DNA of 64,000 nt from Kribbella capetownensis (lineage in GTDB: Bacteria; Actinomycetota; Actinomycetes; Propionibacteriales; Kribbellaceae), in contig NZ_SJKD01000007.1 of NCBI RefSeq assembly GCF_004331485.1, positions 372,001 to 436,000 on the forward strand, written 5' to 3'. The notes beneath the pieces were generated by a model. It was given only the letters and a program-made list of their open reading frames with translations, ran no database searches and was not told where the DNA came from. This document shows, in pieces, positions 10,697 through 17,783 of this stretch (position 1 is the stretch's first letter; every line of letters starts with the position of its first letter). The position numbers and the translations under genes were made by a program.

Positions 10697-11734
10697 ATGT
10701 CGGTCGAACGCCCGCTGCCAGAACCTGCGGACTCGGTGGTCCTGATGCCAGCTTCGGCACTGGTCCTGGGCGGCGACCTCGGCGGCACCTCCACCCGCAT
10801 CGTCATCGCTGACCATGATGGCAACGTAGTGGGAAGAGGGGCCGCGGCCGGCGGGAATCCGACCAGCCACCCCGCAAGTGCGGCGGCCAACTTCGGCCAG
10901 GCACTTCACGCGGCACTGTCCGGCCTGGATCCGACCGCGGTCAAGGCCGCAGTGGTCGGCGCGGCGGGCGGATCGGCGCTGGGACGCCCGGATGTGAAGG
11001 CGCAGTTCGACGCCGCCTGGTCCGGCGTGGGGCTGGTCGTGGAGCCGGACTTCATCGGCGACCTGGAGGTCGCGTTCGCCTCCGGTACGGCTGAGCCTGA
11101 CGGCACCGTGCTGATCGTCGGCACCGGCAGCAACGCCGGTCTGGTCCGCGATCACCAACTGGTCCGCACCGCGGGCGGCCATGGCTGGCTGCTGGGTGAT
11201 GAGGGGTCCGGATTCTGGCTGGGCCGGGAGGCTGTGCGCAGTGTGCTGCTCGCTCTCGATCTCGGCGAGCCGATCGGGCTGCTCGGCGAGGCTGTGGTCC
11301 GGGCGATCCTGCCGGACCGCGACGAACAAACGATCACCTTGCGTGAGGGGTACGACGTACTGCGTGACGACCTGATCAGGACGGTGAACAGCAGGCCACC
11401 CGTCCTGCTCGCTGAGTTGGCGCGGACCGTGGTGACGGCGTACGAACGCAATGACGACACCGCACGGGCTCTGGTGAAACGCGCAGCCGAATTGCTCATT
11501 GAAACAGTGAGCCGGCTCACGACAACGTCGGACAAAGGCCCGATGGTCCTCGCGGGAAGTGTGGCCGGAGAAACATCACCGGTCGGCAAATTGATCCGGG
11601 AAAACATCCATCGGCAGTTCTCGGGTGAGGTCCTGACCGCTCGGGACGGGGTCGGCGGCGCCACCTGGCTGGCCCTCGGCGCCCTCGACCCCGCTCTCGC
11701 GACCCGGGAGAACCACACCCGGCTGGTCAGCTAG
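10697..11734 (+). CDS. N-acetylglucosamine kinase-like, BadF/BcrA ATPase family
   Basis: 345-aa sugar kinase of the ASKHA fold. The phosphate-1 loop is GGDLGGTSTR (25-34), the second phosphate/adenosine motifs are GTGSNAG and GGHGWLLGDEGSGFWLG, and a Gly-rich adenosine segment lies near the C-terminus (LAGSVAGE). It is expected to make GlcNAc-6-phosphate from GlcNAc and ATP in the cytoplasm. It is divergent from the ngc importer, which supports that substrate. ATG 10697 was chosen; ATG 10745 (MPASALVLGG) would also keep the fold intact. The longer upstream frame lacks a ribosome site and is rejected. The stop codon lies inside a long hairpin. Confidence 0.82.
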   Translation: MSVERPLPEPADSVVLMPASALVLGGDLGGTSTRIVIADHDGNVVGRGAAAGGNPTSHPASAAANFGQALHAALSGLDPTAVKAAVVGAAGGSALGRPDVKAQFDAAWSGVGLVVEPDFIGDLEVAFASGTAEPDGTVLIVGTGSNAGLVRDHQLVRTAGGHGWLLGDEGSGFWLGREAVRSVLLALDLGEPIGLLGEAVVRAILPDRDEQTITLREGYDVLRDDLIRTVNSRPPVLLAELARTVVTAYERNDDTARALVKRAAELLIETVSRLTTTSDKGPMVLAGSVAGETSPVGKLIRENIHRQFSGEVLTARDGVGGATWLALGALDPALATRENHTRLVS

Positions 11735-11797
11735 GGCGTGTCTGATGGTCCCGCGCCGAGTGCCGCACAGTAGGCGGGGGACCATCAGACACGCCCT
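11733..11797. terminator. Bidirectional hairpin with perfect 20-bp arms
   Basis: AGGGCGTGTCTGATGGTCCC (11733-11752) and its exact reverse complement (11778-11797) flank a 25-bp loop that can pair further (GCC/GGC). The element fills the whole gap between the stop codons of two convergent genes and even contains the kinase stop. It is well placed as a two-way terminator, but the arm length is unusual and a miniature insertion element is an alternative. Confidence 0.7.
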
Positions 11798-13860: not shown

Positions 13861-15132
13861 ATGAAGGACCTGTGGGGCGTCCTCGCGCGGCAACGCGACT
13901 ATCGGCTGATGCTGAGCGCCGGGCTGATCTCTCTCACCGGCGACTGGCTGCTCCGCACCGGCCTGTCGTTCCAGGTGTACGTGCTGACCGGATCCACGCT
14001 CGCATCCGGCGGCCTGCTGCTGGCGTCGTTCGTACCACCGGTCCTGCTCGGCTCGCTGGCCGGCGTCTTCGTCGACCGCTGGGACCGGCGTACGACGATG
14101 ATCGTGACGAACATCCTGAACGCCGTGGTCCTGCTTCCGCTCCTCGCGGTCCGCGACGAGGGCGCGATCTGGATCGTGTACTGCGTCGTGCTCGCACAGA
14201 GTTGCCTGCAACAGTTCTTCACCCCGGCCGAGCAGTCCCTCGTCCCGGCCCTGGTCGAGTCAGAGCAACTCGTGACCGCGAATGCCCTGAACAATCAGAT
14301 CCGTGACATCGCCCGGCTCGTCGGCGCCGCACTCGGCGGTGTGCTCGCGGCCGTCGGCGGCCTGCCCCTGCTGGCGATCGCGGACGCGGTGACCTTCCTG
14401 GTCGCGGTCGCTCTCGTCGCCGGCATTCGCCACCGCACCACACGCCATCAAGAAGAACAGTCCGCGGAGGAAGCCGCCGAAGGAGCGATCAAGCGGCTGA
14501 AAGCGGAATGGACCGAAGGGCTCCGGCTGTGCGTCGGCAGTGCGGGGATGCGGCTGCTGTTCGGCTTCTGCGTCGTCACCGGTGTCGGCGAAGGCGTGAT
14601 GAGCACACTGTTCGCGCCGTTCGTCAGTGCCGAGCTGGGCGGCGACGGGAAGGCGTACGGCCTGATCGTCTCGTCGCAGGCGATCGGCGGCATCATCGGC
14701 GGCCTGGTCGCCGCATCGGTCGGCTCACGGTTGCCTGCAGCAACAATGCTCGGGATCGGATCGCTGCTGTTCGGCCTGATCGACCTGATCCTGTTCTGCT
14801 ACCCGCTCGTCTCGGACAGCCTGATCCCGGCGTTCGTCTGCATGATCGTCGTCGGCGTACCTGGTGCGTTCGCGATCGCCGGCCTGATGACGGTGCTGCA
14901 ACGCCTCACCGAGGACCGCATCCGCGGCCGGGTCTTCGGCGCGATCGCCGCCGCCGAAGGCGTCGCCGTACTGGTCGGCATCGTGGCCGCCGGTGTCCTC
15001 GGTGACGCGGTCGGCATCATCCCGGTCCTCGTCTTCCAGGGACTCGGGTACGTCGTCGGCGGTCTGGTGATCGTCAGTCGGCGGCGGACGCTGGCTCCGC
15101 ATCCGGAACCGGCTCACCGTCTGTCGGCTTGA
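13861..15132 (+). CDS. MFS transporter, probable drug exporter
   Basis: 423 aa with about 12 hydrophobic helices. The MFS motif A region between helices 2 and 3 is GVFVDRWDRRTTMI. Overall layout resembles the enterobactin exporter/macrolide efflux (EntS/MefA-like) group. ATG 13861 has GAGGAG at good spacing and starts 2 bp after the ArsR stop, so export is likely to be induced when ArsR releases its operator. The last 59 bp overlap the end of the opposing CorC-family gene. Confidence 0.85.
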   Translation: MKDLWGVLARQRDYRLMLSAGLISLTGDWLLRTGLSFQVYVLTGSTLASGGLLLASFVPPVLLGSLAGVFVDRWDRRTTMIVTNILNAVVLLPLLAVRDEGAIWIVYCVVLAQSCLQQFFTPAEQSLVPALVESEQLVTANALNNQIRDIARLVGAALGGVLAAVGGLPLLAIADAVTFLVAVALVAGIRHRTTRHQEEQSAEEAAEGAIKRLKAEWTEGLRLCVGSAGMRLLFGFCVVTGVGEGVMSTLFAPFVSAELGGDGKAYGLIVSSQAIGGIIGGLVAASVGSRLPAATMLGIGSLLFGLIDLILFCYPLVSDSLIPAFVCMIVVGVPGAFAIAGLMTVLQRLTEDRIRGRVFGAIAAAEGVAVLVGIVAAGVLGDAVGIIPVLVFQGLGYVVGGLVIVSRRRTLAPHPEPAHRLSA

Positions 15133-16402
15133 TCAGGTGCACCCGGACCCGGGCGACCCGGCGTCCGTCCATCGCCATCACGATCAGGTTGTGGTCGCCA
15201 ACCTGGACCTCCTCGCCCGCGGCCGGCACCTTGCCGAGCCGCGCGGCGAGGAAGCCACCGACCGTCTCGTACGGGCCGTCCGGGAGCTCGAGGCCGGTCT
15301 CGTCGGCGAAGTCGTCCAGGTTGAGCAGGCCGTCGACCTCGATGTCGCCGCTGCGCAACCGGGTCGTCTCGACGGACTCCTCGTCGTACTCGTCCCGGAT
15401 GTCGCCGATCAGCTCCTCGACCAGGTCCTCCAGCGTGACGATGCCCGCCGTACCGCCGTACTCGTCCAGCACGATCGCCAGGTGAGTACTGCGGCGGCGC
15501 ATCTCCGTCAGCGTGGGCAGCAGTTTCGCGGTGTCCGGCAGCATCAGCACCTCACGCGCCAGGTCGCCGACCCGGACCGAGCGGGACGCGACCGCGGGGT
15601 CGAACAGGTCCCGGACGTGGACGAACCCGACGATGTCGTCGGCGGACCCGTTCATCACCGGGTACCGCGAGTGCGGCCGCTCGGCCGCGAACTTCACCGC
15701 CTTGTACGCCGGCATCTCCGCGTCCACGAAGTCCACCTCGGTGCGCGGGAGCATCAGCTCGCGCAACTGCCGGCCGCCGGCCTCGAACACGTCGTCGACG
15801 ATCCGGCGTTCCTCCTCGCCGAGTGACTCGTGCCCGGAGACCAGGTCGCGCAACTCCTCGTCGGACATCACCTCACGGTTCGCGTTCGGGTCGCCGCCGA
15901 GCGCGCGGACCACCAGGTCGGTGGACTTGGACAGCAGCCAGATCACCGGGCGGGCGATCGAGGCGATCCGGTCGACCAGCGGGGCGAGGCCGAGGGCGAA
16001 CGTCTCCGCCCGCTGGAGCGCGAGCCGCTTGGCCGCGAGCTCGCCGAGCACGATCGAGACGTAGGAGATGGCGATGGTGATCAGCACCAGGGCGGCCGTG
16101 TTCGCGACCGACTCGGGCAGGCCCAGCTTCTGCAGGTGCGGGGAGAGTGAGTCGGCCAGCGTCGCGCCACCGAAGGCGGCGGACAGGAAGCCCATCAGGG
16201 TCACGCCGATCTGGACCGCGGACAGGAACCGGTTCGGATTGGCGGCCACCTTGGCCACGATCTCGCCGCGCCGGCCGCGGTGCGACAGCGACTTGAGCTG
16301 ACTCTCGCGCAGGGAGACCAGGGCCATCTCGGCTGCGGCGAAGACCCCACCGATCAGCACGAAGACAAGAATCAGGACGATATTGAGCAGCGTGTCGTTC
16401 AT
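15074..16402 (-). CDS. CorC/HlyC (CNNM-type) membrane transporter
   Basis: 442 aa. Order of parts: DUF21/CNNM membrane domain (about 1-190, beginning MNDTLLNIVLILVFVL), a CBS pair (about 205-335; LMLPRTEVDFVD and THLAIVLDEYGGTAGIVTLEDL are the family signatures), and a C-terminal CorC/HlyC transporter-associated domain. Homologues transport Mg2+/Co2+ or affect ion homeostasis; 'hemolysin' is a historic name. ATG 16402 has a weak AGGAA site. Its upstream leader holds two strong hairpins, suggesting RNA-level control. Confidence 0.88.
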   Translation of the reverse strand: MNDTLLNIVLILVFVLIGGVFAAAEMALVSLRESQLKSLSHRGRRGEIVAKVAANPNRFLSAVQIGVTLMGFLSAAFGGATLADSLSPHLQKLGLPESVANTAALVLITIAISYVSIVLGELAAKRLALQRAETFALGLAPLVDRIASIARPVIWLLSKSTDLVVRALGGDPNANREVMSDEELRDLVSGHESLGEEERRIVDDVFEAGGRQLRELMLPRTEVDFVDAEMPAYKAVKFAAERPHSRYPVMNGSADDIVGFVHVRDLFDPAVASRSVRVGDLAREVLMLPDTAKLLPTLTEMRRRSTHLAIVLDEYGGTAGIVTLEDLVEELIGDIRDEYDEESVETTRLRSGDIEVDGLLNLDDFADETGLELPDGPYETVGGFLAARLGKVPAAGEEVQVGDHNLIVMAMDGRRVARVRVHLIKPTDGEPVPDAEPASAAD

Positions 16403-16418
16403 GGGTGGGAGTTCCTAG

Positions 16419-16446
16419 CGCCCTCTCGTCAGCTGCCGAGAGGGCG
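16419..16446 (-). promoter_or_regulatory. Hairpin beside the ribosome site of the CorC-family gene
   Basis: CGCCCTCTCG (16419-16428) pairs perfectly with CGAGAGGGCG (16437-16446) around an eight-base loop. In the minus-strand transcript it ends 16 bases before the start codon at 16402 and directly before the ribosome-binding region, so its folding state could control translation. Confidence 0.55.
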
Positions 16447-16480
16447 TTCGTTGGGCGTAGTCGTCCATTTACCTACCCTA

Positions 16481-16644
16481 GGGCATAACCCTCCACCCCC
16501 TGCGTGCTGCGCGGCACCCGGTGGCGCACCTCGCTGCACTGGAGCAACGGCCATGATGGCACCACATCAACGCCTTCGCTCCAGCACACCGAGCTACACC
16601 ACCGGGCACCTGCTCGCGACTGCAGGGAATGGAGGGTTATGCCC
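16481..16644 (-). repeat. 164-bp near-palindrome, possible structured leader RNA
   Basis: GGGCATAACCCTCCA (16481-16495) is repeated exactly in inverse orientation at 16630-16644. The symmetry continues inwards through CCCTGC, CCGGTGG, CTGGAGC and GATG blocks to a centre near 16562, so almost the whole element can fold into one hairpin. Most arm mismatches are C/T or A/G changes that become G-U pairs in the minus-strand RNA, the sense strand of the downstream CorC-family gene. No target-site duplication was seen. It is either a structured leader or a miniature inverted-repeat element. Confidence 0.65.
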
Positions 16645-16736
16645 ACCGGTGGCAGGTCCAACGATGCATGTTCGAGTTTGTTGGTTTACGATGATTCCTG
16701 GCTGACCAGTGTCGGGGCGGCCGGGAGGGTCAATCG

Positions 16737-17783
16737 ATGAACACACCGCGTGGCGCGCGCCGGACGGACACCAAGCTGTCCGACGGACGCGAGCTCATCT
16801 ACTACGACCCGGCCGATGCGCCGGTGCGGGTTCCGCTGGCGGACACCCGCGGGCTGCCGGCACCACAGCCCCAGGTCGAGATGCGGACCGACCCGTTGAC
16901 CGGCGACGTGATCACGTACGCGACCCACCGCAACACCCGGACCTACCTGCCGCCGGCCGACCAGTGCCCGCTGTGCGCGAGCAAGCCGGGCAACCCGACC
17001 GAGATCCCGGACCACGACTACAACGTCGCGGTGTTCGAGAACCGGTTCCCGTCCTTCGCCGGCCCGGGCCGCACCGAGGTGGTCTGCTTCACCAGCGACC
17101 ACAACCAGTCCTTCACCAACCTGTCCCAGGGCCAGGCCCGGCTGGTCGTCGACACCTGGGCCGACCGGACCGCCGAGCTCGGCGCCCGCGACGACGTCGA
17201 ACTGGTCTTCCCGTTCGAGAACCGCGGCCGCGAGATCGGCGTGACGCTGAGCCACCCGCACGGCCAGATCTACGCCTACCCGTTCCTGCCGCCGCGGATG
17301 CGCACCCTGATGACGCAGGCCCGCCGCCACCAGGAAGTTGCCGGCAGCAACCTGTTCGCCGACGTCCTGGCGGCCGAGCGCAAGGAGGGCACCCGGGTCA
17401 TCGCCGAGAACGGCAACTGGACCGCGTTCGTGCCCGAGGCGGCCCGCTGGCCGGTCGAGGTGCACCTGTACCCGCACCGCCAGGTGGCCGGGATCGACGA
17501 GCTGTCGGTCGGCGAGCGCGACGACTTCGCCGAGCTGTACCTCGACGTACTGAGCCGCCTCGACGGTCTGTACGGCGACCCGCTGCCCTACATCGCCGCG
17601 TGGCACCAGGCCCCGGTCCGGATCGACCGCGAGCTCGGCTACCTTCACCTCGAGCTGTTGTCGATCCGCCGGGCCGCGGACAAGATCAAGTACCTGGCCG
17701 GCTCGGAGTCCGGGATGGGCGCGTTCATCAGCGACACCCGGCCCGAGGACGTGGCCGAGACCCTGCGGAAGGTTGGTTCGTGA
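16737..17783 (+). CDS. galT: Galactose-1-phosphate uridylyltransferase
   Basis: 348-aa Leloir-pathway enzyme exchanging UDP between UDP-glucose and galactose-1-phosphate. The HIT-type active site is HPHGQ (173-177) with the nucleophile His175, and a zinc-type pair CPLC is at 77-80. Further family segments are FENRFPSF and LHLELLSI near the C-terminus. Its TGA overlaps the GTG of galK (17780-17783), so the two are translationally coupled. galE is not adjacent. Confidence 0.95.
   Translation: MNTPRGARRTDTKLSDGRELIYYDPADAPVRVPLADTRGLPAPQPQVEMRTDPLTGDVITYATHRNTRTYLPPADQCPLCASKPGNPTEIPDHDYNVAVFENRFPSFAGPGRTEVVCFTSDHNQSFTNLSQGQARLVVDTWADRTAELGARDDVELVFPFENRGREIGVTLSHPHGQIYAYPFLPPRMRTLMTQARRHQEVAGSNLFADVLAAERKEGTRVIAENGNWTAFVPEAARWPVEVHLYPHRQVAGIDELSVGERDDFAELYLDVLSRLDGLYGDPLPYIAAWHQAPVRIDRELGYLHLELLSIRRAADKIKYLAGSESGMGAFISDTRPEDVAETLRKVGS

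Follow-up and report, generated by a model that had tools for sequence, protein, structure and literature searches.

What does a 164-bp near-palindrome do between a galT-like gene and a CNNM/CorC-type transporter gene of Kribbella capetownensis, and does its fold belong to the transporter? The element lies in the window analysed here, a 64,000-nucleotide stretch of the K. capetownensis genome, where the first-pass annotation had read it as a leader RNA of the transporter gene and named a miniature inverted-repeat transposable element (MITE) as the main alternative. We find that the hairpin is one insertion of a mobile, MITE-like family. Its features and those of its surroundings are given in Table 1.

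The structure described in that annotation was confirmed as a 164-bp hairpin, far beyond chance, with perfect inverted repeats in the terminal 15 bp (GGGCATAACCCTCCA / TGGAGGGTTATGCCC) and 23-nt arms that are 91% complementary. RNA of the minus strand folds as one hairpin, as had been proposed for nearly the whole element (-133.8 kcal/mol, z -14.5, 0/200 shuffles as good), whilst the plus-strand fold reaches -101.4 kcal/mol (z -10.9). The annotated G-U bias towards the minus strand was likewise found: pairing the arms by alignment gave 10 G.T versus 1 A.C on that strand, together with 10 other mismatches (GG 5, AG 2, CC 1, TT 1, CT 1). Hereafter, the H strand denotes the minus strand of this element and its counterpart in every other copy. 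A search of window positions 15500-17500 against Rfam at the gathering score returned 0 matches, and three loci with family copies or relatives (L007, L347 and L121) gave sub-threshold matches only, to two microRNA models and, at another place in L121, to one sRNA model; we attribute these to chance.

Table 1. Coordinates of the hairpin element, its parts and its surroundings in the window
Feature	Position	Strand	Remark
Full-length mobile hairpin copy, 164 bp	16481..16644	-	minus is the best-folding H strand
Outer arm (terminal inverted repeat), low-coordinate side	16481..16502		unlike other copies in sequence, pairs with partner
Outer arm (terminal inverted repeat), high-coordinate side	16623..16644
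Conserved core with family motif and G.U pairs	16503..16621	-
Insertion site T^A	16479..16480		empty site in G015 reads CTACCCTACCGGTGG
Second family copy, tip-deleted, 65 bp	11733..11797	+	orthologous site in G015 full length
CNNM/CorC-type transporter gene	15074..16402	-	flank, outside element
galT-like gene	16737..17783	+	flank, outside element

The downstream gene had been classified correctly, its product being a CNNM + CBS + CorC_HlyC protein, and the gap from the element to its start (16402) is 78 bp rather than the 79 bp first given. In favour of a cis-acting, possibly ion-responsive leader, the H strand of the element at 16481-16644 has the same sense as CNNM. Against such a role, a full-length copy at this site was found in none of the other orthologous loci retrieved (0/29), nothing in Rfam matches the element at the gathering score, and the idea that it always precedes CorC-family genes fails, with dispersed copies adjoining other genes in all orientations. 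Furthermore, in another genome (G035, L080) a copy with other arms, belonging to another family, was independently inserted into the same gap beside the CNNM start, and there H is antisense to the transporter gene. Given the lack of full-length copies at the orthologues and this reverse-oriented insertion, we rejected the leader reading for the family, and we now regard it as extremely improbable. A different hairpin with 14-bp arms was observed at 16419-16446, 16 bp upstream of the CNNM start. Of 25 orthologous loci parsed, 24 carry it, and in the remaining one (L080) it follows an insertion; its loop is variable, and its stem shows some differences of the C-G to T-A kind. As a true leader structure of CNNM, this hairpin is a stronger candidate than the 16481-16644 element.

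Copies of the element are dispersed throughout the genus. The genome of the window contains eight further long matches to 16481-16644 (77-82% identity) plus weaker ones, and with the second copy as query we obtained matches in 38/38 Kribbella genomes at E <= 1e-6, copy numbers per genome being lower bounds (22-40 candidates scored per genome). The window locus is empty in K. pittospori NRRL B-24813 (G015; Table 1), and other empty sites were found at the L004 locus (at least 23 empty junctions), L183 and L080; all those examined fit insertion between T and A. As neither arm is present at empty sites, an origin of the outer arms as target-derived DNA was rejected. A short remnant of the same element end occupies the window's site in G035 (L080), which would fit either an older insertion since lost from other genomes or two separate hits on the site. 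The second copy in the window lost its tip in place, since its K. pittospori orthologue (L091) is full length. Additionally, short forms of ~100-117 bp without the hairpin tip were seen in several genomes (L014, L018, L110, L111, L113, L114, L115 and L116), with one site occupied by a full-length copy (L049) and by a short one (L114). A second family was noted at L121-L124, L093:5562, L095:1640, L080 and L027; its ends are different (mostly AGTG..CACT), but its tip is related and its bias towards the H strand is the same.

The search was extended beyond the genus. Across 293 genomes of the order, a model (R1) built from 30 cores of the type at 16503..16621 detected relatives in 40, namely the 38 of Kribbella and 2 of a second genus (g2). 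When named genomes were scanned with a 16-base motif and, among the matches listed, 18 loci were re-scored with R1, five matched (E <= 0.01), all from Kribbella. Phages gave no match to the hairpin family. Among plasmids, two records matched, both linear Embleya replicons (Streptomycetaceae; L463 and L464) at 73-74% identity, and these hairpins too are palindromes with the same strand bias in folding. A survey-level look at the literature on bacterial MITEs, REP orientation and Kribbella repeats yielded no earlier description of the family, which is new as far as our searches show.

The traits of a MITE are evident in this family: at 164 bp with perfect 15-bp ends, the element is short, carries terminal inverted repeats and is non-autonomous, being too small for a transposase gene, and both dispersed copies and empty orthologous sites exist. 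The MITE alternative of the first-pass annotation was thus upheld in the traits that partly define such elements (38/38 genomes with copies, and empty orthologous sites). The annotation had also said that many dispersed copies at unrelated loci, with target duplications, would speak against a leader; the copies were found, but clear target duplications were not, beyond a possible TA. Over 114 copies, pairing ends sharply at an A..T pair, with the flank consensus YT|AGG...CCT|AR. As insertion is at T^A and the element itself ends in A..T, a TA duplication is indistinguishable from none.

With regard to the mover, three insertion sequence loci with DUF4096 transposases (L223, L228 and L231) have CTAGAGCGTGTCT / CTAGGGGGTGTCT-type ends, for example CTAGAGCGTGTCTGACA and CTAGGGGGTGTCTGACA, and a CTAG/YTAR-like target, and another DUF4096 insertion sequence (L222) has the end AGTGCCTGTTCCTG. 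The ends of these four are like those of two element families. We take DUF4096 transposases to belong to the IS5 family, as IS427-type insertion sequences; judged by sequence, the ends and TA-type target of the element resemble those of this group. Since our search for DUF4096 found it in 8/38 Kribbella genomes and not in the window's own, we infer, rather than observe, that an IS5/IS427-type transposase probably acts as the mover in trans. A Y1 (HUH) transposase was found in 1/38 genomes and not in the window's own, and IS200/IS605/RAYT as the common mover was rejected on this basis.

Copies that differ in sequence nevertheless retain their pairing. Among the nine copies of the window's genome, 29/70 pairs change on both sides yet stay paired, mostly in the outer stem; the 29 covarying pairs compare with 12.2 in shuffle controls (0/500), and the 30 cores gave 13 versus 5.5 (0/500). 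In the outer stem (pairs 0-21), sequence varies among copies whilst pairing is kept within each: of 2508 cells, 2400 are Watson-Crick (WC), 54 G.T, 8 A.C and 46 other, counted in 114 of 120 full-length copies after leaving out one without a motif match and five with poor arm registration. As RNA, H folds more stably than its complement in all full-length copies (206/206) and, folded as DNA, it is stronger than anti-H in each of four cores (4/4).

The covariation check suggested by the first-pass annotation was carried out at orthologous loci, where changes postdate insertion. From 26 loci with orthologous copies we used 22, taking the most diverged pair per locus and leaving out family-2 copies, short forms and any locus at which only one full-length copy remained. 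These yielded 89 double changes, where independence predicts 10.8, and 78 of the 89 keep pairing. Single changes between WC and G.U numbered 51, as opposed to one between WC and A.C, and 25 other single changes break a WC pair. Flanks of the same loci contain 225 C/T versus 237 A/G differences, so that mutation is not strand-biased; with a flank skew of only ~1%, we rejected biased mutation as the cause of the G.U excess. On the strength of the double changes and the 51:1 ratio, the copies are, by comparison of their sequences, keeping H folded at their sites after insertion, and the earlier proposal of selection on a single-strand fold of the minus strand is supported by a bias that runs through the family. 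That the element is an ordinary MITE in neutral decay, its fold free of selection, agrees with the dispersed copies, inverted ends, empty sites and tip deletions; it is, however, very unlikely in the face of the excess of double changes, the strand bias and the unbiased flanks, unless the orthologous pairs are recurrent insertions.

Two further features of the fold are of note. Among the mismatches on H, G.G and T.T predominate over C.C and A.A. Moreover, a conserved asymmetric internal motif (CGTAGCGAGC / GCCGCGCAGTAGG) is retained as the flanking helices change, and the same holds in genus g2 (L345 and L347), which suggests a binding partner. The G.U bias is independent of the direction of neighbouring genes, the outer-arm ratios of G.T to A.C in four complete gene contexts being 16:3, 11:3, 16:1 and 6:0.

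The orientation of the copies follows the replication fork, not genes. Relative to replication, 148 of 150 copies (from 157 matches) are alike, with H on the leading-strand template, and the sign of the GC skew in the flanks agrees with this rule. The two exceptions represent one orthologous locus, L004 (L130, L106, L117 and L118), the only reversed locus in the complete-genome set and shared by four species; the two divergent genes that flank the element there are each 6-8 bp away from it. In genus g2, 14/15 matches obey the same rule, the exception lying 94 kb from dnaA (worked out by hand), and H is the stronger fold in 15/15. The full-length copy of the window breaks the rule, as synteny with 11/11 complete genomes places H on the plus strand and it was found on the minus strand; the short copy obeys it. 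Genes beside 138 copies, called by a GC3 heuristic and not by annotation, showed no such uniformity: both were antisense to H for 43 copies, convergent for 33, divergent for 24 and both sense for 10, the rest being incomplete. Within this set, the element lies directly against the 3' end of a gene in 42 copies where that gene is antisense to H and in 18 where it is sense. We also observed that, upon insertion at T^A, the element's own AG can restore a TAG stop.

The reversed locus bears on how polarity arises. Inside the L004 element, pair changes still proceed via G.U and not A.C (at this one locus), and its A.C cells lie outside the element's ends. The G.U bias is therefore not set by the replication strand but follows H. 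This matters for the possibility of DNA-level upkeep without function, whereby template switching corrects hairpins that arise at the fork and, on the lagging template, NucS eliminates copies bearing the mismatches it prefers. NucS is encoded in 38/38 genomes, and the predominance of G.G and T.T mismatches in H fits this scheme, although such mismatches are also better tolerated in RNA. NucS is reported to prefer G-T, G-G and T-T, not A-C (PMC8228993), and template switching can copy one hairpin arm onto the other and maintain hairpins (PMC8794818), both of which lend the idea support. Pure NucS surveillance is attractive as an explanation of polarity; it predicts, however, that the bias flips with orientation, and no flip was seen at L004, if at one locus only. 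We consider this account distinctly unlikely.

Alternatively, H could act as single-stranded DNA, a folded site on the leading template that is read by a recombinase, primase or restart factor in the manner of attC. An orientation set by replication rather than genes would suit this, as would the internal motif that persists between changing helices in both genera. The free exchange of G.T with WC pairs (51 changes), on the other hand, suits RNA better than DNA, the Y1 transposase is absent from 37/38 genomes, and the bias in the fold persists at the reversed locus; as such, we hold a DNA role to be unlikely, albeit less so than NucS-based upkeep.

The explanation we favour, with somewhat better than even confidence, is a MITE with a selected H-strand fold, probably RNA, whose orientation is filtered by replication. 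A non-autonomous, MITE-like element of ~165 bp would insert at T^A; its probable mover is a transposase of the IS5/IS427 type that acts in trans and recognises the outer arms. After insertion the H fold would stay under constraint, most probably as RNA because G.U swaps freely with WC pairs and A.C does not, and the interior would not be passenger DNA. Mismatches between the arms would be removed or compensated by selection, aided by template switching that copies one arm onto the other, and the outer stem would drift and yet stay paired as a result of both. Replication would then filter orientation, with H, the better-folding strand also as DNA, placed on the template of the leading strand, which is less often single-stranded; this filter may be separate from the constraint on the fold. 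The element at 16481-16644 would be one of these copies, lying in the rarer orientation. The data show mobility, dispersal, pairing kept on one strand at the sites and the orientation itself; that the fold acts as RNA and not as single-stranded DNA, that template switching takes part, and what causes the orientation are, like the transposase, matters that we infer.

Several observations count against this explanation. With flanking genes in both directions, H would often be an antisense RNA. A strong orientation filter would not predict that the "wrong" orientation is kept at L004 in four species, and the two exceptional copies of 150, together with the window's own, depart from the rule. DUF4096 occurs in only 8/38 genomes, the window's not among them, which weighs against the mover, and the 25 single WC-to-mismatch changes weigh against full constraint. 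The remnant at L080, with the doubt that it casts on the age of the window's insertion, counts on the same side. More speculatively, and at a level of confidence that we would call low, mobile hairpins in Kribbella and at least one other genus might form a genome-wide class, with the fold of one strand maintained by selection where they sit and their direction locked to replication, and the folded strand would accordingly act in a replication-linked step (e.g. re-priming, fork control or control of transcription-replication conflicts).

Correia/NEMIS, ERIC and YPAL are bacterial MITEs with RNA-level effects (PMC2229807) and share with the Kribbella element a size of <200 bp, non-autonomy, mostly terminal inverted repeats, TA ends, dispersal and an RNA fold. 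Unlike these, the Kribbella arms differ among copies yet pair, the constraint on one strand is seen at orthologous sites, and orientation follows replication. Similarity to IS5/IS427-type insertion sequences lies in the end sequence and the CTAG/YTAR-like target (L223, L228 and L231); the Kribbella element is, by contrast, geneless, and DUF4096 transposases are missing from 30/38 genomes. REP/REPIN-RAYT and IS200/IS605 elements are likewise palindromic and dispersed with one folded strand, and IS200/IS605 also shares orientation relative to replication, whereas a Y1 transposase is present in only 1/38 genomes and the Kribbella hairpin is much larger, conserved inside and variable at its ends. 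For attC sites of sedentary chromosomal integrons, the folding strand is reported to lie on the leading-strand template in 25/30 integrons (PMC5371416), a precedent for the orientation seen here, and inverting such an integron is reported to be costly (PMC11023631). Unlike those sites, no cassette array was seen with the Kribbella element.

The hairpin does not serve as a switch dedicated to the adjacent transporter gene. Mobile repeats are usually assumed to decay once inserted; here individual copies keep a strand-specific fold through species divergence, the unbiased flanks serving as an internal control, and our searches found no earlier description of such elements that combine strand-specific constraint in place with a replication-locked direction. 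The family therefore offers a natural system for studying how palindromes survive in genomes, for asking whether selection or template switching produces the compensatory changes in RNA stems, and for asking what a folded strand does when it is oriented by replication in 148/150 copies (150 of 157 matches).
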